Under the pieces are notes generated by a model. The model was not told the DNA's origin, did no database searches, and saw only the letters and a program-made list of their open reading frames with translations. A stretch of 64,000 bases of DNA, taken from positions 62,001-126,000 of the forward strand of contig CP053689.1 in the NCBI GenBank assembly GCA_013200995.1. Direction: 5' to 3'. Below are positions 26,085 through 63,901 of the stretch, piece after piece (position 1 is the first letter of the stretch; every line of letters starts with the position of its first letter). This stretch comes from Arthrobacter citreus. GTDB taxonomy: Bacteria; Bacillota; Bacilli; Bacillales; Bacillaceae_G. The translations under genes were made by a program, and so were the position numbers.

Positions 26085-26290
26085 TCACGTAACATAACCA
26101 TTCGTTATAGAATACTGGTTAATTGTGCGGGCATCTAACCCAACCTCACATCACGCCCTTGACGACTTGCGTCTAAGGTTAATTTTGAATTGTTGGTTTT
26201 CAGGGACCAACTCGTCAAAACAACCCACAGCGTAACCGAGTGCCTTCATTGATAAAGGTGAGAAGACATTACCTTTAACTCTTCTTATTC
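26085..26290 (-). other. unidentified coding-like relic
   Basis: The minus strand has an open stretch reading MKALGYAVGCFDELVPENQQ and a little further, ending at TGA, then a second stretch in the same direction that ends near the 26 kb hairpin. The local GC is above the surroundings. I do not recognise it; it could be a broken small gene or a structured RNA. Confidence 0.25.
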
Positions 26291-47990: not shown

Positions 47991-50900
47991 TTATTTAACG
48001 ACTGTAACTGTAACTGTCTTAGTTGTTACTTTAAATCCTTCTTTATCAACTGCATCAGCAGAAATAGTATAGGTTCCGCTAGCTAAGTTTGCATCAGGTG
48101 TCCATTTAGTATTAATTTGATGTTCATTATTCACTTGCATACTGTCTACTATTTTCCCACTCGTGTCTTTTACGTAAATTGTCCAATTTACACGTGTTTG
48201 AGCAAATCCATATATTGAAGCTGGTTTGCTTGCATTGATATTTGTACTTGGACTTATACTAAATGTAGGTACAAGCATACTGTATTTAATATATGAAGGA
48301 TCACCCCAAACTTTATAACTTATATTCATTGCATTATCTATTCCCATTACAACAACACTCTTTGGTTCTTCATTTACTAAAACGGAAGTTTCTCCTGGTG
48401 ATACAGATTTTTGTATGCCATTATACCAAAGAATCGCTCCCAAATACCCTGAGCTACTATCAACTGCATCGAACGAAATTTCATATTGACCATCTTTTGG
48501 TGTCACATGAACATTCGATACTTTTGGTCCAACTGAGTCGACTTTAACTGGAAGCTTTACCTTCTGTGGTTTCGCACCCGGATAGTCAAACGTTGTTTTG
48601 ATGACAAAGTTATACGTATCATCACTTACTGTGTTACCGTTTTGATCTTTTGAATCCCAGTTATATCCCATGTACATCCTACTTGCAGAAAGAATATTCT
48701 TACGAAGCGGATAAGACTTCCCACCATTATATTCACTAAAGTCTCCAAGATATTTAATCATCTTACCTTTTTTATCTTCAATATACATCTCCGCTTTTGC
48801 TAAGTTTCTAAATGCTGTAAAGGTTGGGAATACCCCTTTAAGGATTGAATTTGGAGATGTTGCGATTGCATTCATGTTAAATTTGCCTGTTTTATTATCA
48901 TATCCCATAGGAACTGATGCACCTTCATCATTCCAAAGTGCTGTATAGCCTAAAAACGCATCTTTCCGATTCCAAGCTGCTGGATCAATATTATTAAGTT
49001 CAGTCCAATCGCCATTAAAGCCCATATATGGGACTGTTAAAGGAACAGCCGTATCACTATTTGTTCCAGTTGGTACAAGTCGTACAAAACCTTCAACAAA
49101 CTCATTTTTCTTTAATGTTCTAGGTAAGCGAATCTCTACATTTAGATTTTTCGTTTGTCCTCCTTTAATTTTTAATGTTGCACCTTCTGAACCAGTAAGT
49201 TTCTCTCCATTTACATAGATCGAAGCACCTTCAACTCGTGTGCTTTTTAATGATAGATAGTCTTTTGATTCTAAAGTTCCATCACCATCAAAGTCAAATT
49301 GTTTTGTATCAATCCCATCTGTTAATAAGTCCACATTAACAGTGTATTCGTAGTCTTTTTTTGTTCCCTTTGTTTCAAGTGATTCTACATTTAAATTGAA
49401 GATCGCTCGGTCATTTTTAATTTCTTTTAATGCAACGGCCCCTGCTTGCTCAAGTGGTGTATTCTTTCTTGTTACTATTACAGGTGTTTTAATTGCATTT
49501 TGAATTTGCATTAATCCAGATCCCTGAATACGTGGAGAATATGGAACCTTGTTATTCGTTTTAGGATCCATTACCATTTTAGCCGTATTCATTAAAGCAA
49601 TTTTTGCTTTTAAAGCTGTATCTTCTGAGTGAGTTAGTCCTTTTTCATACAACGATTGCATTATTAAGGCAGCACCACCTGCAACGTGTGGCGTCGCCAT
49701 TGAAGTACCGCTCATTACCTCATATTCGTTTCCAGGAGTAGTAGAATAGATTTTTCCACCTGGTGCAGAAATTTCAGGTTTAAAGTCCAATGTAGTTGGC
49801 GCACCATAAGAAGAGAAATAAGACATCGTATCTCGTTCAGGATTATCTATCCAAGTTCCTTTTGTTACTTTCATTTTAACAACTTGTCCGCTATTTAACT
49901 TATCAATTAAAGCATTTCCTGCTGACTTACTTGTTGTAGCTGCAGGGGTAAGATTACTACCGAAATTTACGTATGGATAATCAGACATATTAGTAGCTGG
50001 AACTAAAATGACAGCCTTGGCCCCTCGCTTTTTAGCTTGAGATTGCATTGAAGCATAAGTTGAATAAGATGTATTCGGTCTAAAAACTACAATTTTCCCA
50101 TTAACATCTTTTCCAGCATAATGCTCATCTTTAAATCCTTCACCAACATAAACTAACTCATAACTTTCATTAGGAGAAAGTACTCTAGAAAGTTTAAAAT
50201 CATATTGAGTTTGATCTTGATATGGGAGTTGTAAACCATTTTCTTCCCCCAATGTACTTAATTCGTAATTAGTATTTTCATAGGAAGCTACAGACAAAGC
50301 AAAAGGACTCACACCTGGCTCACCTACAGTCCCGATATCAGGATTCTCTGCATATGGTTGGGCAGAAGCTGTCATAATACTGTTCTTCGTACTATATGCT
50401 GCGTTTCCACCTGCAACTACAACTAATGTTCCATGTTCTGTCGCTTCACGTATTGCTTTTTGGATTGGATCTTTATCTTCTCCAACGAATCCTGAATCAG
50501 TTCCAAGACTCATATTAATAACATCTGCTCCCATTTCAACAGCATGGTTGATTCCTGCAATAATATCATCTTCATATGCGCCTACACTGCCATTGTCAGA
50601 AAAAACTTTTTCAGCTAACAACTGTACACCTGGTGCAATTCCTAGTACACCGTCATTTTCTTCATTCCCATTTGCTCCAATTGTGCCTGATACATGCGTA
50701 CCATGAGGATTTGCGTATTGACCACGTGGTATAACGTCTGTATCATTATCAGCCCAATCATAACCAGTTGGAACCTTGTCACTATACCACTTTTCATTAA
50801 CAGAAGTTTCAGTAAATTTACTTTGAATATTACTTTCTGTCAACTTTTCTTTCTGTTTTCCTTTTTCTGTTAAAGTCATGTCTTTATGAGTGTAGTCTAT

Positions 50901-51521
50901 ACCTGAATCGACTACACCAACAACTAAACCTTCACCTTCATAGCCGTATTTTTCCCATACACTTTGTGCCTGTACTAACTCTTTACTCGTTTTCATTGTT
51001 TGTTCGTAAGTTCTTGCGATATGTACATTTGTAACTCCTGGAGTTGCTTGTAATTCTTTAATATTTTTGTATTCGGTATCTAAGCTGAAACCATTAAACC
51101 CTTCATAAAAACGGTGCCTAATCTTCGGGCTCAGTTTCTGCTTCGACATTTTAGAAACAACATCATCCTGCTTTTGTTTCATTAATACTTTTTTACTTAC
51201 CTTGGATTTCGTTTGTGTAATTTGTGTAGCTTGTTCTGGTTCTTGAACTTCAACAATTACACGTACTTTCTCATTCGGACTAAAACCTTTTGAATTTTCT
51301 TCATTCATATTTTTATAAACTGAATTGGCAGAATCTTTAGCTGCTTCTTTGTTAAGATTATCTAAATAATCTTTTAGCCCACCTTTTGCTTTTTCATCTA
51401 CATTGAAACTTGTAGATTGATTTTCCTTTGTAATTTGTGCGTATCCTGGTGTAGTTAAAAACATTGCAGCTAATGTAGTTGCAGTAATTACTCGAAATGG
51501 TATTTTCTTGCTATTGCTCAT
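47991..51521 (-). CDS. secreted S8 subtilase with PA domain, no dockerin (3)
   Basis: 1176 residues, ATG 51521 behind AGGGGAGAG. Signal peptide MSNSKKIPFRVITATTLAAM ... PGYAQ. The propeptide is about 150 residues. S8 triad: Asp in VGVVDSGIDYTHKD, His in NPHGTHVSGTIGANG and Ser in MSGTSMATPHVAGGA; PA insert includes AKAVILVPATN. The C-terminal half has Fn3_5-like and other beta domains as in lactocepin/C5a-peptidase-type proteases and ends VTTKTVTVTVVK without anchor. It is more distant from the other two subtilases. A calcium-loop-like stretch (FDFDGDGTLESKDYL) lies in the middle. The three form a cluster, each with its own terminator. Confidence 0.85.
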   Translation of the reverse strand: MSNSKKIPFRVITATTLAAMFLTTPGYAQITKENQSTSFNVDEKAKGGLKDYLDNLNKEAAKDSANSVYKNMNEENSKGFSPNEKVRVIVEVQEPEQATQITQTKSKVSKKVLMKQKQDDVVSKMSKQKLSPKIRHRFYEGFNGFSLDTEYKNIKELQATPGVTNVHIARTYEQTMKTSKELVQAQSVWEKYGYEGEGLVVGVVDSGIDYTHKDMTLTEKGKQKEKLTESNIQSKFTETSVNEKWYSDKVPTGYDWADNDTDVIPRGQYANPHGTHVSGTIGANGNEENDGVLGIAPGVQLLAEKVFSDNGSVGAYEDDIIAGINHAVEMGADVINMSLGTDSGFVGEDKDPIQKAIREATEHGTLVVVAGGNAAYSTKNSIMTASAQPYAENPDIGTVGEPGVSPFALSVASYENTNYELSTLGEENGLQLPYQDQTQYDFKLSRVLSPNESYELVYVGEGFKDEHYAGKDVNGKIVVFRPNTSYSTYASMQSQAKKRGAKAVILVPATNMSDYPYVNFGSNLTPAATTSKSAGNALIDKLNSGQVVKMKVTKGTWIDNPERDTMSYFSSYGAPTTLDFKPEISAPGGKIYSTTPGNEYEVMSGTSMATPHVAGGAALIMQSLYEKGLTHSEDTALKAKIALMNTAKMVMDPKTNNKVPYSPRIQGSGLMQIQNAIKTPVIVTRKNTPLEQAGAVALKEIKNDRAIFNLNVESLETKGTKKDYEYTVNVDLLTDGIDTKQFDFDGDGTLESKDYLSLKSTRVEGASIYVNGEKLTGSEGATLKIKGGQTKNLNVEIRLPRTLKKNEFVEGFVRLVPTGTNSDTAVPLTVPYMGFNGDWTELNNIDPAAWNRKDAFLGYTALWNDEGASVPMGYDNKTGKFNMNAIATSPNSILKGVFPTFTAFRNLAKAEMYIEDKKGKMIKYLGDFSEYNGGKSYPLRKNILSASRMYMGYNWDSKDQNGNTVSDDTYNFVIKTTFDYPGAKPQKVKLPVKVDSVGPKVSNVHVTPKDGQYEISFDAVDSSSGYLGAILWYNGIQKSVSPGETSVLVNEEPKSVVVMGIDNAMNISYKVWGDPSYIKYSMLVPTFSISPSTNINASKPASIYGFAQTRVNWTIYVKDTSGKIVDSMQVNNEHQINTKWTPDANLASGTYTISADAVDKEGFKVTTKTVTVTVVK

Positions 51522-52923: not shown

Positions 52924-53578
52924 TTAATGAGCGATCCCATCCCACCAATATAAATTAGATACTTCACTGTAAACAAAAACACTTTCATTTATAGACTCGC
53001 GAGCTATATCGCTCTTGCTTTTTTGCCAAATGTAATTACTGTCATCAGATTTTTTGATTGTTTCAAAGTTACTAACATTTACATTTGTATATATAGTAGA
53101 ATTTTTTTTATTTATCGCCGTTAAAAGCTGCATATATTTTTCTTCTAATTCTTTATTAAAAAATCTTCGGTAATTCCAGATTGCTAAGAGACATTTTCGA
53201 AATTTCTCATAATCCTCAGCATTTTTCATCTTTAAAGCCACGTTTAATAATTCTTCTATTCCCAAATAGGTATTATTTGTTTCACATTTTAACAGTCCAA
53301 TCGCATAGCTATAATCTAAATAAAGATGTTGAATAAATAAATTAGAAGAGTTGCTCATTGCTTCAATTTGATTTTAATGTTTTTCAATAAAGGTTTCCGC
53401 ATCTTTAATTCTACCTAATTTTACATAGCATTCAATGATCCTTGGAATCCCAATAAAAACATCATCACGTTTAATTAGCCAATTATAATAGGAATCAACA
53501 ACGTGTAAATCCCCAGAATCCATGAGAGCTACATATCGATTACCTGCGGCACGATCCTTCGTTATTGAAGAATCGCAT
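52924..53578 (-). pseudogene. TPR-type regulator, 5'-truncated and with a nonsense codon
   Basis: The frame enters at the palindromic site at 53562-53593 and reads SITKDRAAGNRYVALMDSGD, WLIKRDDVFIGIPRIIECYV, KLGRIKDAETFIEKH, then TAA (around 53372) and on in the same frame with NQIEAMSNSSNLFIQHLYLD to the end at 52924. The helical repeats (A/L-x3-G-x-A patterns) look like the C-terminal TPR part of a peptide-sensing regulator such as AimR, Rap or PlcR families; which one I cannot tell. The N-terminal half, including any HTH, is missing exactly at the site. Confidence 0.55.
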
Positions 53579-53593
53579 TAGTTAGTTTAATAA
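53562..53593. repeat. 32-bp palindromic cassette-end site A
   Basis: TTATTGAAGAATCGCATT plus AGTTAGTTTAATAA. The right arm is nearly identical to sites C, D and H. The stop codon of the gene at 53587-53823 is inside it (site positions 26-28), the same place as in site D. Left arm is the most diverged of the set. Confidence 0.75.
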
Positions 53594-53823
53594 GTTGGCG
53601 AATAAATATAATCAGTATCAGTATCAATAACAAAATCAATTTCGATTTCATCATCGAAAGGCAACTGTTCAAAACGGTGTAATCGACAAAAAACATCTGG
53701 TAGATTCCTAATGTCATTTACCATACTTAGTGCCTGTAAATATTTTTGTTTCAATTCTTTTTTAGAACATTTCCTACCTGTAAGTAGTGCTTTTGTAAAG
53801 TATCCGTCAATTTCAATGTTCAT
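53587..53823 (-). CDS. small acidic array protein
   Basis: 78 residues (MNIEIDGYFTKALLTGRKCS ... EIEIDFVIDTDTDYIYSPTY), acidic C-terminus, no membrane helix. I chose ATG 53823; a GTG 9 bases earlier is possible and no strong ribosome binding site is seen for either. The last codons and the stop are made by the palindromic site A. It resembles small immunity or accessory proteins only in size. Function unknown. Confidence 0.55.
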   Translation of the reverse strand: MNIEIDGYFTKALLTGRKCSKKELKQKYLQALSMVNDIRNLPDVFCRLHRFEQLPFDDEIEIDFVIDTDTDYIYSPTY

Positions 53824-53870
53824 AATAGTCACGACTGATTGCTAACCAATCCATATAGCTTAAATTTTTA

Positions 53871-53883
53871 TTATGTAACTAAA
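53871..53883. repeat. left arm of palindromic site B (IS110-interrupted)
   Basis: TTATGTAACTAAA. Its exact reverse complement TTTAGTTACATAA is at 55511-55523, on the other side of the IS110 element. The two arms rebuild one site of the array family. Confidence 0.8.
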
Positions 53884-53904
53884 GCATCAGTTCGTATTAT
53901 AAGG

Positions 53905-54120
53905 TCATCCAGTTTAATTTACTGGTTGACCAATTTTTTTATGGTCTTATGATTAAAGTAGTCGGGGCAGAACGAAGCATCAGTGGGGCTTAGATCCCGT
54001 CAACTAAACAGTTCACCCCCTACTTATAGAAACATGATTTGGGCTGGTTGGGACAAATATCCCGCATAACAAGCGAACCTATGACACTATGAGGGAGTAT
54101 TAGGGGAACCGATAAATTTA
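53905..54120 (+). ncRNA. candidate bridge RNA of IS110 copy 1
   Basis: Conserved with copy 2 despite being non-coding and able to fold (CCAGT...ACTGG at its start; repeated GTGGG/CCCG blocks). Between GAACG and GTGGG it carries AAGCATCAGT (53975-53984), identical to the target flank at 53882-53891. Further on CAACTAAAC (54001-54009) can pair with GTTTAGT of the right flank at 55510-55516. These fit the left and right target guides of a bridge RNA as known for IS110/IS621. RNA ends are not determined. Confidence 0.6.
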
Positions 54121-54143
54121 ATAGCTTTAGGAGGAGATAGATT

Positions 54144-55378
54144 ATGAATCCAGTAGTTGGTCTGGATGTCGCAAAAGGAGAAAGTCAAGTTCAAGCTTTT
54201 TTAGATAAAAAGACTCCTATAAAAAAAGTTTTAAGATTTCGCATACAGTTGAGGGATTTGTGCAGCTTCTTCAATTCTTTCAGAATATCGAAGAAATAAC
54301 GAATACAAAACCAGTAATCATATTGGAATCGACAGGACATTACCATTCACCAGTTATCCAGTTCTTAGATAACTCAAATTATATTTACATCGTACTTAAT
54401 CCATTAATCTCTTATCGAGCTAAAAGCACGAGTTTAAGAAAGGTAAAAACTGATGCCATCGATGCGTTCCACCTCTGCGAGCTGTATTACAAAGAAGAGT
54501 TAGAGCCATATAAAAAGCGTGGTGTACAATTACTAAACCTTCGAAATTTAACAAGACAGCACGATCAATTAACAGGCATTAGTACTCAGTCAAAACTACA
54601 TTTCCAAGCGATTCTAGATCAAGTATTTCCTGAATATCGGGGTGTGTTTGGCGACTTGTACTCTAATGTTTCACTCTTAACTTTACTAGAGTTTCCTTCA
54701 TCTGAAGCTGTGTTACGAGCAGGTGAAGATCAACTAGCTAAACGTATTGCATCATTATGTACTAGTCGCTCTAAGCAATGGGCAAGCGAAAGGGCAAAAC
54801 TTTTAATTACCGCGGCTGAAAAAAATCCGTTTCAAGTCAATCTTTATAGAAGCCTTATTATTTCGCTTGAGATGCATATCAAAATGGTTCTTCAATACAA
54901 AGAACATCTATCCAATTTGAAAGCAGAGATAGATGTTCTCGTAAAAGAAGTTGAAGAATATACTATCATCCAATCAATTCCAGGTATCGGAGAAAAAATC
55001 GCGGCAACGATTATCTCTGAAATAGGTGAAATCAATCGGTTTGATAATCCTAAAAAGCTTGTGGCTTTCACTGGAGTAGATCCAAGTGTCTTTGAATCTG
55101 GCAAATTCACAGCCACTAGAAACCGTATTACAAAACGTGGTTCTAGTCGATTGAGGCATGCGCTATTCATGGCTGTTCGGTGTGCAATTCGTGATACTCG
55201 TAAGAGTAAGACAACTGACGAAATCATCCCAAGAAATAAACGAATGCGACAATATTATGATAAAAAGCGTGAAGAAGGAAAACCTTTTAGAGTAACAGTA
55301 ATAGCTTGTGTAAATAAACTATTACATTGGATTTATGCCCTGTTAAAAAGCAAGTCTACTTTCCAGGATCTAGCTTAA
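54144..55378 (+). pseudogene. IS110-family DEDD transposase, copy 1, frameshifted
   Basis: Starts MNPVVGLDVAKGESQVQAF (ATG 54144, AGGAGGAG upstream). After about 28 codons a missing base in the A7 run near 54220 shifts the frame; the rest runs as FKISHTVEGFVQLLQFFQN ... to 55378. The DEDD residues are in GLDVAKG, ILESTGHYH, and KTDAIDAFHL; the C-terminal Transposase_20 domain has IIQSIPGIGEKIAATII and FTGVDPSVFESGKF. About 75% similar to copy 2. A frameshift in a homopolymer may be real or a sequencing error. Confidence 0.85.
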
Positions 55379-55510
55379 AATCTAACTCAGCCACCATTAC
55401 CATAATATTCCAATTCCTATATGAGTGGAAGATTATTTGGCATGTCAAAAATAGTATAACATGAGTTACATATTTTTTTTATTGAAAATTATTGACAAAC
55501 TATTAGCTGG

Positions 55511-55523
55511 TTTAGTTACATAA
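55511..55523. repeat. right arm of palindromic site B
   Basis: TTTAGTTACATAA, exact reverse complement of 53871-53883. It also encodes the end and stop of the 49-codon gene at 55512-55661. Confidence 0.8.
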
Positions 55524-55661
55524 GAAAAGTGATTTATTTTTAATTTCTTCTAATAAAGTAATCATCTCTTTATTTTGTTTAATTAATTTGCTATTTTGCT
55601 TTCTAAGATTTGCAAATTGAACGATACACACTATTAATATTATGATTATTAATATATTCAT
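55512..55661 (-). CDS. 49-residue single-pass membrane protein of the array
   Basis: Short gene: ATG 55661 preceded by GGAGGTGTACG, product MNILIIIILIVCIVQFANLR then a charged helix (KQNSKLIKQNKEMITLLEEI) and LFLCN. One membrane helix with a cytoplasmic coiled tail. The stop TAA lies in the arm of palindromic site B, which was separated from its other arm by IS110 copy 1. Function unknown; a good ribosome binding site supports expression. Confidence 0.6.
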   Translation of the reverse strand: MNILIIIILIVCIVQFANLRKQNSKLIKQNKEMITLLEEIKNKSLFLCN

Positions 55662-55805
55662 CGTACACCTCCAATTTTTATAGGAAATATTTCAACAAAG
55701 TCACCTAAAAACCTTTGCATCGAAGGCGTTTATTTTACTCTTATTCTAAAGGTATTTTAAACAGAAGCAGGGAATAAGAATACGAGTTGTACCTAATAGC
55801 TCGTG

Positions 55806-55837
55806 ATGTGCAACTAAAGCATTCGTTAGTTCAATAA
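55806..55837. repeat. 32-bp palindromic cassette-end site C
   Basis: Core CAACTAAAGCATTCGTTAGT then TCAATAA (55811-55837). Same 32-bp length as the others. The 135 bases to its right hold at most a 50-codon leftward frame (ATG 55903) without ribosome binding site, which would read through the site, so this unit seems to have no clear gene. 55662-55805 also holds none. Confidence 0.75.
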
Positions 55838-55972
55838 TTTGTTTGTGATTAAAAAAATAGACTTTAACTTTATATTTGTATAAATTGAATTGTGTAATCT
55901 TCATTGATTAATGTTACATTTATATAGAGAGACTCCCTGTCTAGAGTTCTCTCTTATTTTATTTTTAAATTC

Positions 55973-56004
55973 TTATCTAACTTAAGCATGCATTAGTTGC
56001 ATAG
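55973..56004. repeat. 32-bp palindromic cassette-end site E
   Basis: TTATCTAACTTAAGCATGCA then TTAGTTGCATAG, centre GCATGC. It lies 13 bases downstream of the stop of the DUF3841 gene. Confidence 0.8.
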
Positions 56005-56017
56005 GGTTTATAACTTT

Positions 56018-56584
56018 TTAAGCCCAATCGAGTTTTACGGCTTCTCCATGAAGTAGCTCCCAGGAACGTGATGTTTCGTTAAAGCGATAGACCGAAAGAA
56101 GTTCGTCTTCAGTAAAGCCGTCAATGACGCCTTGCTTCGTTGCCCCAAAGCTATACTCATGTTCTATTAACCACTCAAAATCAAATACTCGTTCCCATCC
56201 ATATTGTTCAGGGAGAATGTCTTCGTGTGATTCTTCTTCCGCAGTAGTTAGTCTACCTTCGTTCAGTGGTACATGCCAAGCGTCAAAACAACTCCAAAGC
56301 ACGTCAATTTCGCTATGCTCGAAGACAAACAAATAATTTTCTTTATTCCCTTCTTCAATGTCCCAGTCCATTGCACCGTCGCGGTACCCTTCAGGAATTT
56401 CTTCCCATACCCATATCAGTGCTGATGCACTCGTATCACGGATGCGTTTCTTGTAAGATTCGAGCATCCAGATATACTGCGTTCTCATCGACTCATAGGG
56501 TATGAAAGACGGATCAGCAACGTAAGAGCCACGTTGACGACAGGCACCCCACCAAGCTGGCTTTTGAAATGTGTACATTTTCAT
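56018..56584 (-). CDS. DUF3841-like protein
   Basis: 188 residues from ATG 56584, chosen because AAAAGGAGGATCC lies 9 bases upstream. Begins MKMYTFQKPAWWGACRQRGS; the middle has WVWEEIPEGYRDGAMDWDIE and FVFEHSEIDVLWSCFDAWHV, typical of the DUF3841 family of unknown function. Soluble, Trp-rich, acidic. Flanked by palindromic site E on its 3' side and by a terminator on its 5' side, so it forms a self-contained unit of the array. Confidence 0.7.
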   Translation of the reverse strand: MKMYTFQKPAWWGACRQRGSYVADPSFIPYESMRTQYIWMLESYKKRIRDTSASALIWVWEEIPEGYRDGAMDWDIEEGNKENYLFVFEHSEIDVLWSCFDAWHVPLNEGRLTTAEEESHEDILPEQYGWERVFDFEWLIEHEYSFGATKQGVIDGFTEDELLSVYRFNETSRSWELLHGEAVKLDWA

Positions 56585-56628
56585 TCTAGGGATCCTCCTT
56601 TTGTTCGTCATTTCCTTTAGAATACAAA

Positions 56629-56663
56629 TATAAAGCTGATTAGAGTTTCTAATCAGCTTTATA
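56629..56663 (-). terminator. terminator between array units
   Basis: A 16-bp perfect stem (ATAAAGCTGATTAGA/TCTAATCAGCTTTAT) with a 3-base loop, lying after site F and before the DUF3841 gene on the minus strand. Shows that the 32-bp sites are not needed as terminators. Confidence 0.75.
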
Positions 56664-56693
56664 CTGCTTTAATAATGACTATCGAACTGTGCT

Positions 56694-56725
56694 TTATGCA
56701 ACTAACGCATCATATAGTTGAATAA
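56694..56725. repeat. 32-bp palindromic cassette-end site F
   Basis: TTATGCAACTAACGCATCAT then ATAGTTGAATAA. Lies 45 bases after the stop of the zinc-ribbon gene at 56771. Confidence 0.8.
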
Positions 56726-56770
56726 CTGTTAGATTCATTTTTTCTTCATATGGTCTTAGTCTTTTTTGAT

Positions 56771-57073
56771 CTATTGAAGTGAAATGTCTTTAAATCCTTT
56801 AAAAACTTCTAATTCCAGTGATAAGGTTTCTTTCATTTTCTTGTAGCATTTTTCACTACATAAAGCAAAAATACCATCAGTTCCTTCTGACTTGGCTTCA
56901 GAATCTTTCCCTGATACAATCATTGGAACACTTGTATTTCGAGTTCGGAGACCTATATGAATAATTTTCCCTTCACTTTCGGTAAAATCTTCATCTTCTA
57001 CAAACTTAACACTTAACGCAAATACTTGCTTGTCATTCTTAATTTTTTTCATACACCAGGCACACCTAAGCAT
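56771..57073 (-). CDS. small zinc-ribbon-like array protein
   Basis: 100 residues. A CxxC near the N-terminus (MLRCAWCMKKI) and CSEKC near the C-terminus (FALCSEKCYKKM) would bind one zinc ion; the segment between is strand-rich (FALSVKFVEDEDF, IIHIGLRT). ATG 57073 follows GGAAGGTGACTAA. A tetranucleotide repeat lies 34-59 bases upstream. No known family recognised. Followed by palindromic site F. Confidence 0.65.
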   Translation of the reverse strand: MLRCAWCMKKIKNDKQVFALSVKFVEDEDFTESEGKIIHIGLRTRNTSVPMIVSGKDSEAKSEGTDGIFALCSEKCYKKMKETLSLELEVFKGFKDISLQ

Positions 57074-57106
57074 TTAGTCACCTTCCATCACCAGAAAATT
57101 TTTATG

Positions 57107-57132
57107 TTATTTATTTATTTATTTATTTATTT
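57107..57132. repeat. tetranucleotide microsatellite (TTAT)6.5
   Basis: Six and a half perfect TTAT units in the leader of the zinc-ribbon gene at 56771-57073, upstream of its ribosome binding site. Slippage could change promoter spacing or leader length. Confidence 0.85.
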
Positions 57133-57256
57133 GATAGTTTCGAATGTTACTCTTATCAACCAGTATAAGGGTAGACATTCTCTATCCTGAAACAAATTCC
57201 TTCTTAAACTATTTTTTATTATTATAGACTAGGAACTGACTTTAAGATCCCGAGAG

Positions 57257-57288
57257 TTATTCAACTATCGCATGCGTTAGTTTAATAA
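57257..57288. repeat. 32-bp palindromic cassette-end site D
   Basis: TTATTCAACTATCGCATGCG then TTAGTTTAATAA, the most symmetrical copy, centre GCATGC. The stop of the gene at 57282-57617 is at site positions 26-28, as in site A. Confidence 0.85.
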
Positions 57289-57617
57289 ATATTAACTTCA
57301 ATAAGAAAACCTTTACTGCTGTTCATCTTTGATAATAATGTATATTGCACGCTTTCGAAATTTCTTTCACATACATAAAAAGTTGCGTTTGAGTATTCGA
57401 TAAAATTTACTAAAGAGGAAAACAATTTGCGTGCATTTTGAAAATCAAAATTTTTCATTTTTACGTTAACGTAATATATATTCTCTTTATAGTCTTTAGT
57501 ATAGGTATCCACAACTTTATCTTCATCCTCAAAAAAATCTACTATTTCAATAGCTATACCTTGTTCATATTCTAAATTTACATCTTTGGATAATTCATAT
57601 AATCTTTCTTTGTTCAT
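57282..57617 (-). CDS. small array protein, acidic
   Basis: 111 residues (MNKERLYELSKDVNLEYEQG ... MNSSKGFLIEVNIY), acidic, strand/helix mix, no membrane helix. ATG 57617 preceded by AAAAGGATGG. Its C-terminal Ile-Tyr-stop is encoded by site D, just as Thr-Tyr-stop of the gene at 53587 is encoded by site A, though the two proteins are not otherwise alike. No family recognised; size and context would suit an immunity protein. Confidence 0.6.
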   Translation of the reverse strand: MNKERLYELSKDVNLEYEQGIAIEIVDFFEDEDKVVDTYTKDYKENIYYVNVKMKNFDFQNARKLFSSLVNFIEYSNATFYVCERNFESVQYTLLSKMNSSKGFLIEVNIY

Positions 57618-57722
57618 AAATTTCCATCCTTTTTTTTCTATCTATTCTGCCAACTAAATAATAAAAAGTTCCATAGTTAGTTCTCTCCTGTTGACACTTT
57701 AGTGTAATTTTATCAAAATTCC

Positions 57723-57735
57723 TTATTCAACTAAA
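57723..57735. repeat. left arm of palindromic site G (IS110-interrupted)
   Basis: TTATTCAACTAAA; partner arm TTTAGTTGTATAA at 59318-59330 matches its reverse complement at 12 of 13 positions. Confidence 0.75.
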
Positions 57736-57754
57736 CTGCCATTCGTATTATATG

Positions 57755-57960
57755 GTTAGCCAGAATTTTCTGGTTGACCTATTTTTTATAGGTTATATGA
57801 TTACAGTAGCCAGGGTAGAACGTAACTGCCAGTGGGACAATGATCCCGTCGACTAAACTGTTCTCCCTCTACTTATAGAAACATGTTTGAGGCTGGTTGG
57901 GACTTGATCCCGAATAACAAGCGAAGCTATGAAACTATAAGAAGAGCTAGAGGTTACTGG
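57755..57960 (+). ncRNA. candidate bridge RNA of IS110 copy 2
   Basis: Homologous to the 5' non-coding part of copy 1. The variable stretch between GAACG and GTGGG contains AACTGCCA (57824-57831), identical to its own target flank at 57734-57741 and different from copy 1. GACTAAAC (57851-57858) can pair with GTTTAGT of the right flank (59317-59323). RNA ends undetermined. Confidence 0.6.
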
Positions 57961-57986
57961 TAAAAAAGAGTTAAGGAGAGATGTAA

Positions 57987-59188
57987 ATGAATCCAGTAGT
58001 TGGTCTGGATGTTTCAAAAGGAGAAAGTGAAGTACAAGCCTTTTTAAATAAGAGTATTCCTTACGGAAAAAGCTTCAAAATTTATCACACAAACGAAGGT
58101 TTAAATTTCTTTCTACAATTTTTAAAGGATTTAGAAAACAAGACATTAGTTAAACCTACTATCATTCTAGAAGCCACAGGACATTATCAAGCACCTGTCA
58201 TTCAATTCTTAGAGAAATACAATTACTTGTATATTATGATTAATCCTTTAGTGTCCCATCAGTCTAAAAAAACAAGCTTAAGAAAAGTAAAAACTGATGC
58301 CATGGATGCCTATAATCTTTGTAAATTGTTTTATAAAGAAGAATTAGAGCCCTATAAAAAGCGAGGAATTAATCTCTTAAACCTACGCCATTTAACGAGA
58401 CAACATGAAGCGATAACTGGTATGTATATCCAAGCAAAGCTACAATTTCACACCATGTTAGATCAAGTATTTCCTGAATATAGACGTGTATTTGGTGACT
58501 TATTTTCTAAAGTATCTTTAAATCTATTAAATGAATTTCCCACCTCTGAGAAAGTTTTAAAAGAATGTGAAGTAAATTTAGCTGAGAAGATCCGTTCACT
58601 ATGTAAAACACGTTCTTACCAATGGGCATTAAAAAAGCAGCTAAATTAAAAGAAGCTGCCATGAATAATCCTTTTGATAAAATTATTTACCAAAGTCATT
58701 TAATCAGTCTAAATATGTTTATTCAAATGCTTCTTCAATACCAAGAGCACCTATCTATCTTAGAGGAACAAATAGCTACTCTGACTAAAGATATCGAAGA
58801 ATATAAGATAATCCAATCTATTCCAGGTATCGGAGAAAAAATCGCTGCAACGATACTCTCTGAAATTGGTGAAATAGAACGGTTTAATCATCCAAAAAAA
58901 TTAGTAGCCTTCGCTGGAGTTGATCCTAGTGTATTTCAGTCTGGTAAGTTCAATGCCACAATAAATCGTATTACCAAAAGAGGTTCAACTAGGCTCCGTC
59001 ACGTTCTATATATGGCAGTCCTTTGTGGAATTAGGAGTTCCAGAAATAAACGATTAAAAGAATTTTATGATAGAAAACGTGTGGAAGGTAAACCCGCAAA
59101 AGTCGCAATAATTGCTTGTGTAAATAAATTATTACATTGGATATATACTCTTTTAAAAAGGAAAGAAACATTCCTTGATTTAAACTAA
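57987..59188 (+). pseudogene. IS110-family DEDD transposase, copy 2, frameshifted
   Basis: MNPVVGLDVSKGESEVQAFL ... intact to SYQWALKKQLN at 58649; a one-base loss near 58630 separates it from IKKAAKLKEAAMNNPFDKI ... to 59188. DEDD residues: GLDVSKG, ILEATGHYQ, KTDAMDAYNL. C-terminal part has IIQSIPGIGEKIAATILS and FAGVDPSVFQSGKF. Ribosome binding site AAGGAGAG upstream of ATG 57987. Like copy 1, it is interrupted once. Confidence 0.85.
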
Positions 59189-59317
59189 ATACCAATATTA
59201 TGAAGTAATAACAAAAACTTCCAATAAGGTAGTGGAAGGCTATTTGGCATGTCTATTTTTAGTATAACATGTGTTTTATAAGATTTTCATTGAAAAATAT
59301 TGACAACTATTAGCTGG

Positions 59318-59330
59318 TTTAGTTGTATAA
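59318..59330. repeat. right arm of palindromic site G
   Basis: TTTAGTTGTATAA; see left arm at 57723-57735. Confidence 0.75.
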
Positions 59331-59332
59331 GG

Positions 59333-59439
59333 AGATTCAATATCCTGCTAAGCCAGGTCCAGCAATCACTCTTAAAAAAGCTAGACTAAATAGGAGAATG
59401 GGTGATTATATATTAGTAGATAAAAAATTTGAATTTTAG
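59333..59439 (+). pseudogene. 3' end of an unidentified gene
   Basis: Plus-strand frame open from the IS110 flank: IQYPAKPGPAITLKKARLNR, RMGDYILVDKKFEF, stop at 59437-59439. It has no start; the 5' part was lost where site G and the IS110 now lie. The next gene follows 14 bases later, so it was probably the upstream member of an operon. No family recognised. Confidence 0.5.
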
Positions 59440-59453
59440 GAGCCTGGTTAATT

Positions 59454-60059
59454 ATGACTGATTTAGTTAAATTGCCGAAAGCTGCTGTCTTTGGAGCTGC
59501 AAACGGCGTGATGTTCATGACTTTTTTTGGAGCGCTTTGGGCTTCCATTGGTATTATTGGTTCACATGGACTTGGAGCTCCATGGTTACTTGTTCTTTCG
59601 TTTGTAGTGACATTAATCTTACTCATCGGAGCCATATCGCTTTTTGGTAAAGCCCGTAACATGAACAATGCTTTTATACCAGAAGTGAGTGAACATTGGA
59701 AAAAAATAAATCGAAAATTTGGTTTAATCTTCGGTCTAGAAGGTCTTGCGATATTTATTGCAGGTGTGATTTGTAACATAATCAACCATTTTGAGGTCTT
59801 TTTCCCTATTATGGCTATTATTGTCGGTATACATTTTTTTCCTTTAGCTAAATTGTTTCGAGAAAATTTTTATTATGGTACAGGTGGAGTGCTCTGCATT
59901 ATAGGCGTTATTACTTTCTTATTACCAACGAATGTCACTGTTAGCAATGTAAATCTAATTGCGACGTCTACTTTTATCGGTTTTGGCTCTGCTTTATCAC
60001 TATGGTTGACAGGTCTGAGAATCTGGATAACTATACTCAAACAATTGAAACAAATATAA
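59454..60059 (+). CDS. polytopic membrane protein
   Basis: 201 residues with about five or six hydrophobic helices (GVMFMTFFGALWASIGIIG, LVLSFVVTLILLIGAISLF, LAIFIAGVICNIINH, FFPIMAIIVGIHFFPL, GVLCIIGVITFLLP). ATG 59454 follows TAGGAGCC. It resembles DUF7010-like small membrane proteins of Bacillus; not certain. It is on the plus strand, opposite to the array genes, and looks like part of the older DNA into which the array or IS moved. Confidence 0.6.
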   Translation: MTDLVKLPKAAVFGAANGVMFMTFFGALWASIGIIGSHGLGAPWLLVLSFVVTLILLIGAISLFGKARNMNNAFIPEVSEHWKKINRKFGLIFGLEGLAIFIAGVICNIINHFEVFFPIMAIIVGIHFFPLAKLFRENFYYGTGGVLCIIGVITFLLPTNVTVSNVNLIATSTFIGFGSALSLWLTGLRIWITILKQLKQI

Positions 60060-60261
60060 AAAAGAGCGATGAGATGACGGGTTTAGTTCTAAGATGTTTT
60101 AGCATTGTTAACCCCCTTCTCGCGGATCAATCTAGTATCCGCTTAAGAAATAGCTTCTCTTTAGTTACTCAGTTCACGGATGACCCAAGTAGCACTATTT
60201 TTTCTTTGAAGAGATGAATTGAGGATAAACCAGTCAGCCTAAGCAATCTTAAAAACCACTC

Positions 60262-60300
60262 AACTTTTAACTAAACCAGCTAATAGTTTGAAAAAGTTGT
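60262..60300 (-). mobile_element. solitary IS110 right-end relic, inverted
   Basis: 60269-60290 is the exact reverse complement (22 nt) of the right end of IS110 copy 1 (CAAACTATTAGCTGG then TTTAGTT). No transposase is attached. It is either the remaining end of a third, deleted element or an alternative recombination product. Confidence 0.65.
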
Positions 60301-60325
60301 CTAGCTATATCTTGGAATAGTCTTG

Positions 60326-60552
60326 ATTTTTAGTTAGACATATATCCAATGTAAGAGCTAGTATCAACGGATCCATTGGCTGGATCATCTTCATTCCAAT
60401 TATTCTAACCATCGTTCTATACTTTTTTTTCGAATTAATAACTCATGACTATTAAGGTGTGCATTTATCTGCTTTATTTGGTATGCTTAACGGACAGTTA
60501 TGGACCGGGTCCACTAAACTGAATGAAGAAGAGGGTAAAACATGGGAAAATT
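60326..60552 (+). pseudogene. membrane protein C-terminal relic with in-frame stop
   Basis: Plus-strand frame: NVRASINGSIGWIIFIPIIL, TIVLYFFFELITHDY, TAA, then in the same frame GVHLSALFGMLNGQLWTGST, KLNEEEGKTWEN and TGA at 60550. One or two membrane helices. The end overlaps the start of the 58-residue gene at 60542, so the two were translationally coupled. No start found. Family unknown. Confidence 0.45.
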
Positions 60553-60718
60553 GAATGCAGTCGAAAAATTGCAAAAAGAATTAATGAAGACGCGCGAAGC
60601 GATCGATATCGTCAAGATCATCTTAGCGAAGAAACACGACCCTCATCTCGAAGAACAGTTGAAAAGATTAATCACCGAACACAATGAAATTGTGACACAA
60701 ATCAAGAGCATCCAGTAA
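60542..60718 (+). CDS. 58-residue helical protein
   Basis: MGKLNAVEKLQKELMKTREA then IDIVKIILAKKHDPHLEEQL and KRLITEHNEIVTQIKSIQ; a coiled-coil hairpin in appearance. ATG 60542 has AGAGGG at 5-10 bases upstream. The gene has a higher GC content than its surroundings and ends in its own terminator. It is similar in size and helix-turn-helix hairpin shape to Spo0E-type phosphatases but lacks their SQELD signature, so I leave it unnamed. Confidence 0.65.
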   Translation: MGKLNAVEKLQKELMKTREAIDIVKIILAKKHDPHLEEQLKRLITEHNEIVTQIKSIQ

Positions 60719-60732
60719 GGATGCTTTTTTTT
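60708..60732 (+). terminator. terminator of the 58-residue gene
   Basis: GCATCC-agtaa-GGATGC followed by TTTTTTTT, overlapping the stop codon. Confidence 0.9.
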
Positions 60733-60972
60733 CTTATCGCCCTCTACTCGTAACCACCCGGACGCTATCTATCTAGGTCAACCAGTCCATCCATATTTTA
60801 TGTCATGACTTTTTCATTTTTGAATGGTAACATTTTTACACATTCAACCAAACTAAAATGATATCTTTCTTTTTTACACAAACCAGAAATGACCGAACTT
60901 CAAAAATAAATTAATTTAGTCAACTAATTCATTGGAGATTTACACCAGTTTCTTCTATTATATATGTCTTTC

Positions 60973-61989
60973 TTATCGGGTATTTATATGATTAAGTATT
61001 TTCTCCTTTATGTAATCCACAATAGATAACTCCGATTCATTGGCAAGTTTATGCAATTGTTCTTTTACGTTTTTGGGAATATTAATTGTTATACTCTCAA
61101 AATCTGTGCCTATATAAAGACCATTGTGTCGTAACTGAATACTTCCTTCAATTAAAAGAGTTTCTAAAATTTTAAATGTCTCATTGTAATTATCAATTGA
61201 TTCTTTATCCAGTTGAATAAATAATGGTTTAATTTTAATATGGACTTTATTCTTCCCTTGCTCTATATCTATATTTTCAGTACCAATGAAGTTATAAATA
61301 AAATCAAAAATTCGATAATCTTTACTTTTAATATTATTTAGTATTATAAATTCAAAAGTTGCGTAATGTTTCTTTGTAACTCGTTTGAATGTCCCTACTT
61401 TATAGATAGGTTCATAACCACTAGCCATAATAGCAGCTCCTACTAATTCTTTACCATGAGCAGTCATCAGAGTAGGTATATTATTTTCAATTCGAATAAT
61501 ACGGCCATAATCATTCGTTAATTCATTTCTAAAAGATTGGTACAAATAAAATTCTTTATTCTTTGTAAAGAATGATTTTCGTTTCGATTTACTCTTATTA
61601 ACATAATCTGATTCTTTTAAACTAGTTAACGATTCGTTAGAAACAAAATATGTAGGTTTACCTTTAAAATCAAATTTCGATGCAGCTAATGAGCCATCTT
61701 TTATATATTTTTGAAGAGTAGTTACATGTAATCCAACGATTATCGAGACTTCTGATAAAGTATATCCTTCTGGTCGCTTATATTCCGAAGCAAATGCTTC
61801 TACAACAGTTTTATCAAACTGCATTGTACCTTCTATTCGCCAGTTATCTTCATACTTTTGTTTCAACTTTCCATTACGAACATAATAATAAATTGTAGAA
61901 GTTGAAGGTTGTTCACCCCACTCTTTACCTAAATATTCAATAACTTCTTTTGTAGTTAAGACCTGTTCGCTTTTTTGATATTCTATCAA
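60973..61989 (-). CDS. HTH DNA-binding protein divergent from the recombinase
   Basis: 338 residues, TTG start at 61989 behind GAAGG. Two helix-turn-helix motifs of the MerR/excisionase (HTH_17) kind are visible: VLTTKEVIEYLGKEWGEQPS with TIYYYVRNGKLKQK, and YTLSEVSIIVGLHVTTLQKY IKDG. The rest includes a basic linker (NKSKSKRKSFF), a mixed domain, and a C-terminal RHH-like tail (ITINIPKNVKEQLHKLANES). It may regulate or direct the tyrosine recombinase transcribed away from it 419 bases off. Family not recognised. Confidence 0.65.
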   Translation of the reverse strand: MIEYQKSEQVLTTKEVIEYLGKEWGEQPSTSTIYYYVRNGKLKQKYEDNWRIEGTMQFDKTVVEAFASEYKRPEGYTLSEVSIIVGLHVTTLQKYIKDGSLAASKFDFKGKPTYFVSNESLTSLKESDYVNKSKSKRKSFFTKNKEFYLYQSFRNELTNDYGRIIRIENNIPTLMTAHGKELVGAAIMASGYEPIYKVGTFKRVTKKHYATFEFIILNNIKSKDYRIFDFIYNFIGTENIDIEQGKNKVHIKIKPLFIQLDKESIDNYNETFKILETLLIEGSIQLRHNGLYIGTDFESITINIPKNVKEQLHKLANESELSIVDYIKEKILNHINTR

Positions 61990-62407
61990 TGTTGTAACCT
62001 TCCTTCTAAAAATTTTTATTAAGTATATCTCCGCTTTTTACAATATAGTGGATCTATTCTATAATCCTTTTCATGTTTTTTTATTAAATTTTATAAATAG
62101 TATTATTAGTAAAAATTGGAATTATAATTATTATACTTAAGATTCATTTTTATGTCTAACACTACTAAAACTTTAAAGATAAAGTTTAAATACGTAATAT
62201 TCAATATCAATATAGTGTAAAAGAATGGACGATTATTTTACACTTATATAATTTAGCATATATATTAATTTCTTTAACTTTAATCTTTAACTCGATGGAC
62301 ATTCCTATAAAGTATATGTATAGAAAATAAGATTTAAATAGTTTAATATAGTAAGAAATAGTTAATTTTCTATTATTTGGTTATGAGTTGAAAGGATGTG
62401 TTTATAA
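61990..62407. promoter_or_regulatory. divergent promoter region between HTH gene and recombinase
   Basis: About 420 bases of very AT-rich DNA without genes. Must contain the start signals of both divergent genes and is a candidate for the HTH protein's operator and, by analogy with integrons, for a recombinase attachment site. No copy of the 32-bp site is found here. Confidence 0.45.
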
Positions 62408-63574
62408 ATGAGGGTTCAAAGTTTATTTCCAGCTAATTATAATCAAGAAGTAATAGTTAATATAAATGATTACCCACTTTCACTAACTAATGAACAAATT
62501 CAAGTATTAGATCACACACATGAATTTGCAGAAAAGTATAAGGTAGATATTCATGAGGCATTTTCTGATATTGACATGATTTATCGTTTTGTTTACCAGA
62601 GGAAAGAAATTGGAGATTTATATGAAGATGATGAAATTAGTGGGAGTAAAAATAAACAAACGCGTAAAACTTACATAAAAGAACTTTTAACGTTTTATAA
62701 TCATTTATTTGAGAATAAACAAATCTTATTAGAAGATACGTTTCAAACTGAAAGTCAAAGTATTTTACGTATCCTAGAACCTCGACATGTTCTTAATTAT
62801 CAAAAGTGGTTAGTGGCGGCTCCATTTGGCCGATATAACAAACCTTATAAAAAGACAACAATCGCTAAAAAGACAGTTGTACTGAAAGGATTTTTCAAAT
62901 ACTTATATGAACAAAAATATATCGAACGTCCTCTCCATTATTCACTTGTTTCAGCTAATGTAACACGGAATGATCTGCCAAACCGTGATGTGACATATGA
63001 GGAAGTTAAACAAATACTGGACTACTACAAAAGCTCTCCACTTCATTACACAATATTAATTACACTAGCAACAACTGGTTTAAGGTTAGCAGAACTTGCG
63101 ACTGCAAAATGGAAAGATATTTCAAAAGATCATCGAGGTTATTGGTTAAAGATTATGGGAAAAGGTCGTAAAGAACGAGAGGTTTATCTAATGGATTATG
63201 TGTTTGATGAAATAGTAAAGCTTAGAAAAAGAAAAGGATTAGTTATAGATTTAGATTCATTAGATGATTCACATTTAATTTTAACTAGCAATATGAAACC
63301 ATATAGTCCAAATTATTTATCTAAATTCGTTTCAGAAATGATCAGTCGGACAATGTTCCCCTTCCTGCAACACCATTCTCGCAATGGGAAAATCTCTGCA
63401 CATTTTTTCCGTCATTTTTATGCTATATTCAGTCGGGAAAATGGGGCTGATATATACTCTATTTCTACTTCACTCGGCCATGAAAGTATAAAAACAACTC
63501 AGATTTACCTAGCAAAACATGAAAAACGAGATACAAATGTGGGATTGGTATGGAAGAATAAAACTACATTCTAA
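62408..63574 (+). CDS. tyrosine recombinase/integrase
   Basis: 388 residues; ATG 62408 with GAAAGGATG upstream. An N-terminal SAM-like core-binding domain (about 80-190, TYIKELLTFYNHLFE, VVLKGFFKYLYEQKYI) precedes the catalytic domain with Arg in LATTGLRLAELATAKW, Lys in MGKGRKEREVYL, HxxR in SAHFFRHFYAIFSR, His in TSLGHESIKTTQ and Tyr in QIYLAKH. The set is complete, so it should be active. It is the only recombinase in the window with a full active site and it lies between the two ends of the palindromic-site array. Whether it acts on those sites is untested. Confidence 0.85.
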   Translation: MRVQSLFPANYNQEVIVNINDYPLSLTNEQIQVLDHTHEFAEKYKVDIHEAFSDIDMIYRFVYQRKEIGDLYEDDEISGSKNKQTRKTYIKELLTFYNHLFENKQILLEDTFQTESQSILRILEPRHVLNYQKWLVAAPFGRYNKPYKKTTIAKKTVVLKGFFKYLYEQKYIERPLHYSLVSANVTRNDLPNRDVTYEEVKQILDYYKSSPLHYTILITLATTGLRLAELATAKWKDISKDHRGYWLKIMGKGRKEREVYLMDYVFDEIVKLRKRKGLVIDLDSLDDSHLILTSNMKPYSPNYLSKFVSEMISRTMFPFLQHHSRNGKISAHFFRHFYAIFSRENGADIYSISTSLGHESIKTTQIYLAKHEKRDTNVGLVWKNKTTF

Positions 63575-63631
63575 CTTTATATAAAATCATATCATATATA
63601 ATAGAAGAAACTGAGTAACATATTTATAAAA

Positions 63632-63655
63632 AAGCATCCTAAAAAGGATGTTTTT
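63632..63655 (+). terminator. terminator of the recombinase gene
   Basis: GCATCCT-aaaa-AGGATG followed by TTTTT, about 60 bases after the stop. Confidence 0.8.
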
Positions 63656-63714
63656 AAATTTATTCAGAATCGAAATATAGTATTTTGCTTAACTTTAACT
63701 GTAATCTTCTTGTA

Positions 63715-63838
63715 GATACTAGGAATGTAAAGACAGGAAAATCTTTAGAGAGAGAACTTTCTCTCGAAGAGAAATATAAAAACTTCAAGCACAAAACAAA
63801 CTTTTAATAGTAGAGAATGAATTGTTAAAAAAATCGAA
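63715..63838 (+). pseudogene. IS3-family orfA 3' remnant
   Basis: Frame GKSLERELSLEEKYKN, a shift, then QAQNKLLIVENELLKK and stop. The leucine-zipper-like end is typical of IS3 OrfA. Only about 40 codons left, with a frameshift. Confidence 0.5.
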
Positions 63839-63869
63839 ATGATGGAAATGGACCACACAGCCGATCTTG

Positions 63870-63901
63870 TTGTTCAACTAAAGTATGCGTTAGCTTAATA
63901 A
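63870..63901. repeat. 32-bp palindromic cassette-end site H
   Basis: TTGTTCAACTAAAGTATGCG then TTAGCTTAATAA. Same orientation and length as sites A, C, D, E and F; lies 300 bases beyond the recombinase gene. The stop codon of the partial leftward gene is inside it. Confidence 0.8.

Follow-up and report, generated by a model that had tools for sequence, protein, structure and literature searches.

A probable integron-like system in Gram-positive bacteria: arrays of candidate gene cassettes in Gottfriedia and other Bacillales

The stretch of DNA considered here (the window) comprises 64,000 nucleotides, positions 62,001–126,000 of contig CP053689.1, part of a 250-kb contig that is a plasmid. 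The closest named relatives of its host are Gottfriedia species. In the last 11 kb of the window, small genes alternate with similar 32-bp palindromic sites, and the question is what these sites do. An initial annotation proposed an analogous, independent cassette system of Bacillales, with intergenic repeats of the repetitive extragenic palindrome (REP) kind as the alternative. The first proposal is supported by arrays of sites, by the unrelated genes between them and by units copied, gained or lost at sites. The sites are very probably the core sites of an integron-like, site-specific recombination system that shuffles gene cassettes and would be run by a family of 292-amino-acid (aa) Xer-like recombinases. 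Since gene-plus-site units are gained, lost and copied at the sites, some Gram-positive bacteria appear, from these sequence comparisons, to have their own version of integrons, which are otherwise known chiefly from Gram-negative species. Below, coordinates without a prefix are window positions, the own genome is G000 (C1, chromosome; C2, plasmid), the own genus is Gottfriedia, and G- and L-numbers denote genomes and fetched loci.

All six intact sites of the initial annotation (A, C, E, F, D and H) were confirmed at their coordinates. A weight matrix built from these same six scores them at 32.6–41.5 bits, while the best score in 50 Markov shuffles of the window is 17.7 bits. A pattern search of the window returns 10 matches over the two strands, where 0.01 would be expected; some of the matches are a single site read on both strands. 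When the training loci are all from outside Gottfriedia, the matrices re-find A, C, F, D and H at 24–30 bits on the + strand and miss E, B and G. They pick up two further places in the window as well, one scoring 18.1 bits and one, which lies within a gene, 21.2 bits. Generic matrices mark 2 places in window positions 1–52000 and nothing in two array-free stretches of G008. Sites B and G, described as split by insertion sequences (IS) of the IS110 family, proved to be real sites, and both halves of each were located. The sites had also been described as sharing one orientation and one consensus. The common orientation holds in general; site E has a near-palindromic core and scores better on the opposite strand, so that its orientation is not secure. 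The arms are shared, but there are two classes that differ in the core, and G belongs to the second. On the gene strand class I is roughly TTATNCAACTAAC TGATGC RTTAGTTGMANAA and class II roughly TTATTCAACAAAA TGGCAG TTTAGTTGCATAA. The features of the array in the window are as follows; halves and sites were placed by matrix.

53562..53593, minus strand: site A, class I (matrix, coordinates checked)
53587..53832, minus strand: cassette gene, 81 aa; near-identical cassettes at G000:C2:130689–130966 and in another species (L191)
53871..53892, minus strand: first half of site B, class I, cut by IS110 (matrix)
53893..55510, plus strand: IS110-family element in site B, transposase frame broken
55511..55523, minus strand: second half of site B (matrix)
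55512..55661, minus strand: possible cassette gene, 49 aa, membrane-protein-like
55806..55837, minus strand: site C, class I (matrix)
55973..56004, strand not secure: site E, class I (matrix)
56018..56611, minus strand: cassette gene, DUF3841 protein, 197 aa
56694..56725, minus strand: site F, class I (matrix)
56771..57073, minus strand: cassette gene, 100 aa, no Pfam match, CxxC-like motifs by eye
57257..57288, minus strand: site D, class I (matrix)
57282..57617, minus strand: cassette gene, 111 aa, no Pfam match
57723..57743, minus strand: first half of site G, class II, cut by a second IS110 copy (matrix)
57744..59317, plus strand: second IS110-family element, transposase frame broken
59318..59330, minus strand: second half of site G (matrix)
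62408..63574, plus strand: tyrosine recombinase of 388 aa, unlikely to be the enzyme that serves the cassettes
63870..63901, minus strand: site H, class I; the array runs on past the window to about G000:C2:184.9 kb

The window holds only one part of a much larger set. In the own genome the site pattern matches 80 times on one strand and 70 times on the other, compared with once on each for the reversed pattern. An iterated matrix finds 196 sites in 20 fetched stretches of this genome (172 of them at 25 bits or more), and 189 of the 196 share the strand that predominates in their stretch. The arrays occur on both plasmid and chromosome, the largest at 115–185 kb and 758–816 kb, respectively. 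Among 119 genomes searched, pattern matches are present in all 13 from Gottfriedia (7–152 each); a further genus of the family accounts for 38 matches, and each of the other 105 genomes has 0–6.

Related sites extend well beyond the genus. In 73 loci with homologues of the 292-aa recombinase from outside Gottfriedia, 1010 sites were found and none in shuffles; 987 of these lie on one strand relative to the recombinase, and 67 loci carry at least 5. With a matrix trained on Neobacillus, 18 loci of other genera yield 231 sites, 228 of them on one strand; this test is only partly independent because its training sites were chosen with all-genera matrices. A blind repeat search finds a repeat of at least 7 copies in 26 of 51 loci and in 0 of 51 shuffles, the mark of 7 having been used because 4–6 copies were already reached in six genuine stretches of the own genome that contain few sites. 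Two Peribacillus plasmids carry only a partial recombinase and 7 generic sites each. In G092, from another family, relatives of the 292-aa protein (L088, L089) lie amid a different repeat, present in L088 in 11–12 copies of ~63–74 bp with ATCTCGAATTCAAGTCTTCC; the site sequence may thus have diverged together with the recombinase. Three loci labelled Chryseobacterium and Paenibacillus (L114, L122, L146) resemble those of other Bacillales, and their genomes are possibly mislabelled or mixed.

All 46 close pairs in the own genome (92 of the 196 sites) run in one order, gene, class I, ~26 bp, class II, next gene, and the other sites are solitary. The short spacer contains a T-run in 33 of 35 tested cases and has a mean folding energy of −10.2, versus −4.9 for shuffled spacers; outside the genus a T-run is present in 128 of 167 spacers. 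Because it folds better than its shuffles and carries this run, the spacer reads as an intrinsic terminator, and one stretch contains 13 terminator-like sites against 4.0 expected. In integrons most cassettes lack promoters and are transcribed from Pc; here, a promoter scan of one stretch gave no more promoter-like sites than its shuffles. Own intervals of 200–1300 bp typically hold one gene: the longest open reading frame (ORF) lies on the gene strand in 96 of 102, with a median of 132 aa, and its stop falls a median of 15 bp ahead of the next site. The 95 proteins from these intervals form 77 clusters, so that conserved sites separate largely unrelated genes, as had been expected of a cassette system. 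Six of the proteins match GNAT models, four NUDIX, and single ones SUKH or WapI-type immunity families. In a Sporosarcina psychrophila plasmid (L183) merA and merR, for mercury resistance, are among the cassette-strand genes near the recombinase. Rfam at its gathering threshold gives two group II intron matches and one epsC match in the window, L020, L022 and L140, and no match to the sites in any of the four.

As judged by comparing sequences, cassette units have been gained, lost and copied at the sites. Copies of a cassette in different arrays, replicons or species match up to the site core and then diverge; the 81-aa cassette of the window (53587–53832), for example, has copies at C2:130.7 kb and in G009. 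This behaviour was counted at the ends of repeated blocks after IS110, intron and other IS blocks had been removed, leaving 73 of 155 blocks in the genus and 168 of 457 outside. Within the genus, 24 of 144 ends fall at a site in both copies, against ~0.08 expected; 5 of the 24 lie in class II, and seven blocks have sites at both ends. Before the removal, with IS110 ends included, the count was 29 of 179 ends from 91 of the 155 blocks. Outside the genus 42 of 330 ends fall at sites, against 0.5 expected; in 11 of these 42 the site is called class I in one copy and class II in the other. As partners are often shared between comparisons, these counts are not of independent events. Positions across the site were compared at 11 class I 3' ends, five of the 16 compared earlier having been left out of the recount as ends of site-lodged IS110 copies. 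Differences there number 6 of 143 in the left arm, 41 of 143 in the right arm and 224 of 330 in the flank, and core positions 1 and 2 differ in 3 and 4 of the 11 ends.

Presence and absence of whole units gives a second view of the same process. All breaks are near sites in 6 of 66 indel-like cases, of which three were read. In two Psychrobacillus species (L149, L166) a 1.8-kb unit between two class II sites corresponds to a single class II site composed of the left part of one flanking site and the right part of the other. In two genera (L129, L179) a 1.4-kb unit with a 355-aa gene is present or absent at the class I site behind the recombinase, and the same holds between two arrays of one genome (L140, L142) for a 0.9-kb unit that carries a 169-aa gene. 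The predicted gain or loss of one gene plus one site is therefore seen between arrays, species and genera, the levels compared. At one chromosomal locus the relatives G012 and G011 do not have a 7-kb insert that carries its own array; as the edges of this insert are not at sites, it documents only presence or absence of an array. At the array edges of L149 and L166 the outermost sites combine one canonical and one unrelated arm, and may mark the sequence that the array originally entered.

Other mobile elements also lie in the arrays. All six readable IS110 left ends in arrays are at site cores, five of class I and one of class II. A group II intron lies inside an array at L020 4142–6047 (G000:C2:134.1–136.0 kb), and the ~1.98-kb block containing this intron is repeated at 99.7–99.8% identity in three arrays, including chromosomal ones. 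IS110 at site cores and group II introns in arrays recall the parasites of attC sites.

The best candidate for the cassette recombinase is not the 388-aa protein of the window but a 292-aa Xer-like protein at G000:C2:127788–128663, 1.8 kb past the window end. It has the Pfam domain (PF00589), fold and catalytic residue pattern of a tyrosine recombinase. Among short loci, 9 of 11 with a member of the 292-aa family contain sites, compared with 1 of 12 for the 388-aa family and 0 of 11 for other recombinases. In a tree without true IntI its family forms one group apart from housekeeping Xer, with support of 91/94, short of the threshold that the tool itself sets; the branches are long. The gene sits in mid-array, with 294 sites on one side and 301 on the other in the 34 loci that have 10 kb on both sides. 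It often stands between a class II site before it and a class I site behind it, in the opposite direction to the cassettes. Phage records contain four relatives at E <= 1e-40, all of 38% identity or less.

The 388-aa protein was considered as the enzyme and rejected. G003 and G006 have 63 and 50 pattern matches and no close relative of it, G014, G017 and G018 have relatives and no match to the site pattern, and the only one of its 12 loci with sites is the window's own. It forms a divergent pair with a helix-turn-helix (HTH) protein (60973–61989 and 62408–63574). Such a pair occurs twice in the genome, the other being at G000:C1:1165666; the two recombinases are 43% identical, and relatives are common on Priestia and other plasmids. 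The pair is perhaps a plasmid maintenance module.

The arrays, their strand bias, the gene-per-interval layout, identity that ends in the core, the gain and loss of units and the association with the recombinase are all directly visible at the level of sequence, and a mechanism that would produce them can be outlined. A cassette would usually be one small gene with its own 3' site. An enzyme of the 292-aa family would bind the inverted ~13-bp arms around a ~6–7-bp core, and exchange between two class I or two class II sites would excise the intervening unit as a circle; in the reverse reaction the putative circle would insert at a resident site. As the classes share arms but differ in core, class I is expected to be kept from recombining with class II. 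The terminator-like hairpin in most close pairs suggests that each gene is insulated and presumably has its own promoter. As arrays are found both on the chromosome and on a plasmid that has conjugation genes, cassettes could pass between species and genera. A still broader interpretation is moderately probable, in which cassette capture throughout Bacillales arose from an Xer-type recombinase independently of IntI and attC, with two exclusive site classes, insulated genes, transfer between genera and an ordered grammar (I, gene, II, terminator or recombinase).

Several observations weigh against the recombination system proposed here. Unlike cores (TGATGC, TAATGC, GCATGC) seem to have exchanged, which disfavours simple rules of core identity. 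G006 and G010 have 50 and 7 pattern matches and no close relative of the 292-aa protein, and its copies are broken in G003, G009, G011 and G012. The recombinase (E <= 1e-75) is present in only 16 of 38 genomes of the order with at least 6 generic site matches, versus 36 of 261 with fewer than 6 (Fisher p 0.0001), a hand count for which only 8 candidates were scored in most genomes. Only 92 of the 196 own sites stand in close I–II pairs. The longest ORF is on the other strand in 6 of 102 own intervals and, outside the genus, in 79 of 489 (410 on the gene strand).

Four other explanations were weighed. In the first, the host XerC/XerD would recombine the sites, as in the Xer-dependent pdif modules, and the 292-aa gene would be mere cargo. 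Acinetobacter pdif (dif) modules resemble the present system in that genes are flanked by short sites whose inverted arms enclose a short core and that Xer-type enzymes recognise them. However, pdif sites are mostly in opposite orientation and served by host XerCD, according to PMC7399989, whereas the sites here are direct, fall into two classes, form arrays of tens and have their own candidate recombinase. No sites were found near 11 loci of XerD-like or other recombinases, although the host enzymes may act in trans, and the 292-aa family is apart from housekeeping Xer in the tree and lies amid sites in most of the 73 loci. This explanation is unlikely.

A true integron is doubtful to much the same degree. 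Here the ~90-bp element (class II, terminator, class I) would be an attC site that folds as single-stranded DNA and is recombined by IntI. The I–II pair does form a palindrome, although an imperfect one, with a hairpin loop and with centres that are not complementary, and both the cargo of the cassettes and their parasites, IS110 and group II introns, are like those of integrons. The partner motif of RYYYAAC in attC is GTTRRRY. Some arms here fit RYYYAAC, which PMC8632094 gives as a mark of attC. However, the folded-attC idea has no support from the outer arms, which do not covary either in the 35 elements tested as integrated (p 0.82) or in the 29 circles that were reconstructed (p 0.33), and the inner arms covary only at p 0.02–0.04. 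The 292-aa protein scores 93 bits against the cut-off of 265 for the IntI model TIGR02249, which is reached in none of the 13 genomes of the genus but also in none of 14 control genomes, so that there is no positive control. In addition, some cassettes that recur at separate locations have only class I sites at their ends, and the recombinase is in mid-array, with nearly as many sites on one side as on the other.

Repeats of the REP or miniature inverted-repeat transposable element (MITE) kind, multiplying by themselves and following genes by chance, are very unlikely. As the recombinase is frequently flanked by class II on one side and class I on the other, the ~90-bp element could be the reduced derivative of a II–recombinase–I mobile element. 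However, as set out above, the strand of the sites is uniform (987 of 1010), intervals hold one gene, the copies include that gene and end in the site core, and the three inspected presence/absence units are gene plus site, not site alone; the REP-like alternative thus fails on arrays, uniform strand and gene-sized units. Least credible is homologous recombination between repeats, without a dedicated enzyme: numerous sites of similar sequence and several broken copies of the recombinase would fit it, but 32 bp is short for ordinary homologous recombination and junction partners share little past the site, with mismatches even within that limit.

Elsewhere in the window, conjugation genes include a MobL relaxase and a VirD4-type coupling protein. 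Three very large proteins are encoded in a row (38632–42636, 43527–47645 and 47991–51521); the third matches a subtilase family and the other two are alike by eye. The epsC RNA family match (RF01735, 106.6 bits) is at 26128–26274, likewise on the plasmid.

The best-supported reading is therefore of a system that would work like an integron, yet fails two defining tests of that family. In both, small cassettes that are for the most part unrelated stand in long arrays, all pointing one way, and have palindromic sites at which they are gained, lost and duplicated (here by sequence comparison). Acetyltransferase, NUDIX and immunity-type cargo, arrays without an intact recombinase, and IS110 and group II introns within arrays are likewise common to both. 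In contrast to integrons, the recombinase here is not IntI by the family model, the sites are of two classes and most close pairs enclose a terminator-like hairpin, and the recombinase is in mid-array, whereas the integron integrase and attI are at one array end. The folding as a single strand by which attC recombines is unsupported here by outer-arm covariation. Integrons are extremely rare in Firmicutes, with one complete example (Limnochorda pilosa) and a few CALIN elements in the IntegronFinder 2.0 survey, as given in PMC9024848. No description of such a Bacillales cassette system was found in searches of the open-licence PMC literature, a scope outside which other print and preprints lie. 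If the interpretation is correct, Bacillales would possess their own cassette system, one that surveys based on IntI and attC fail to pick up, and a recombinase with two site classes could serve as a tool. Integrons could then be compared with a second case in which cassette capture arose, and the system would help to explain how soil bacilli store and exchange many small accessory genes.

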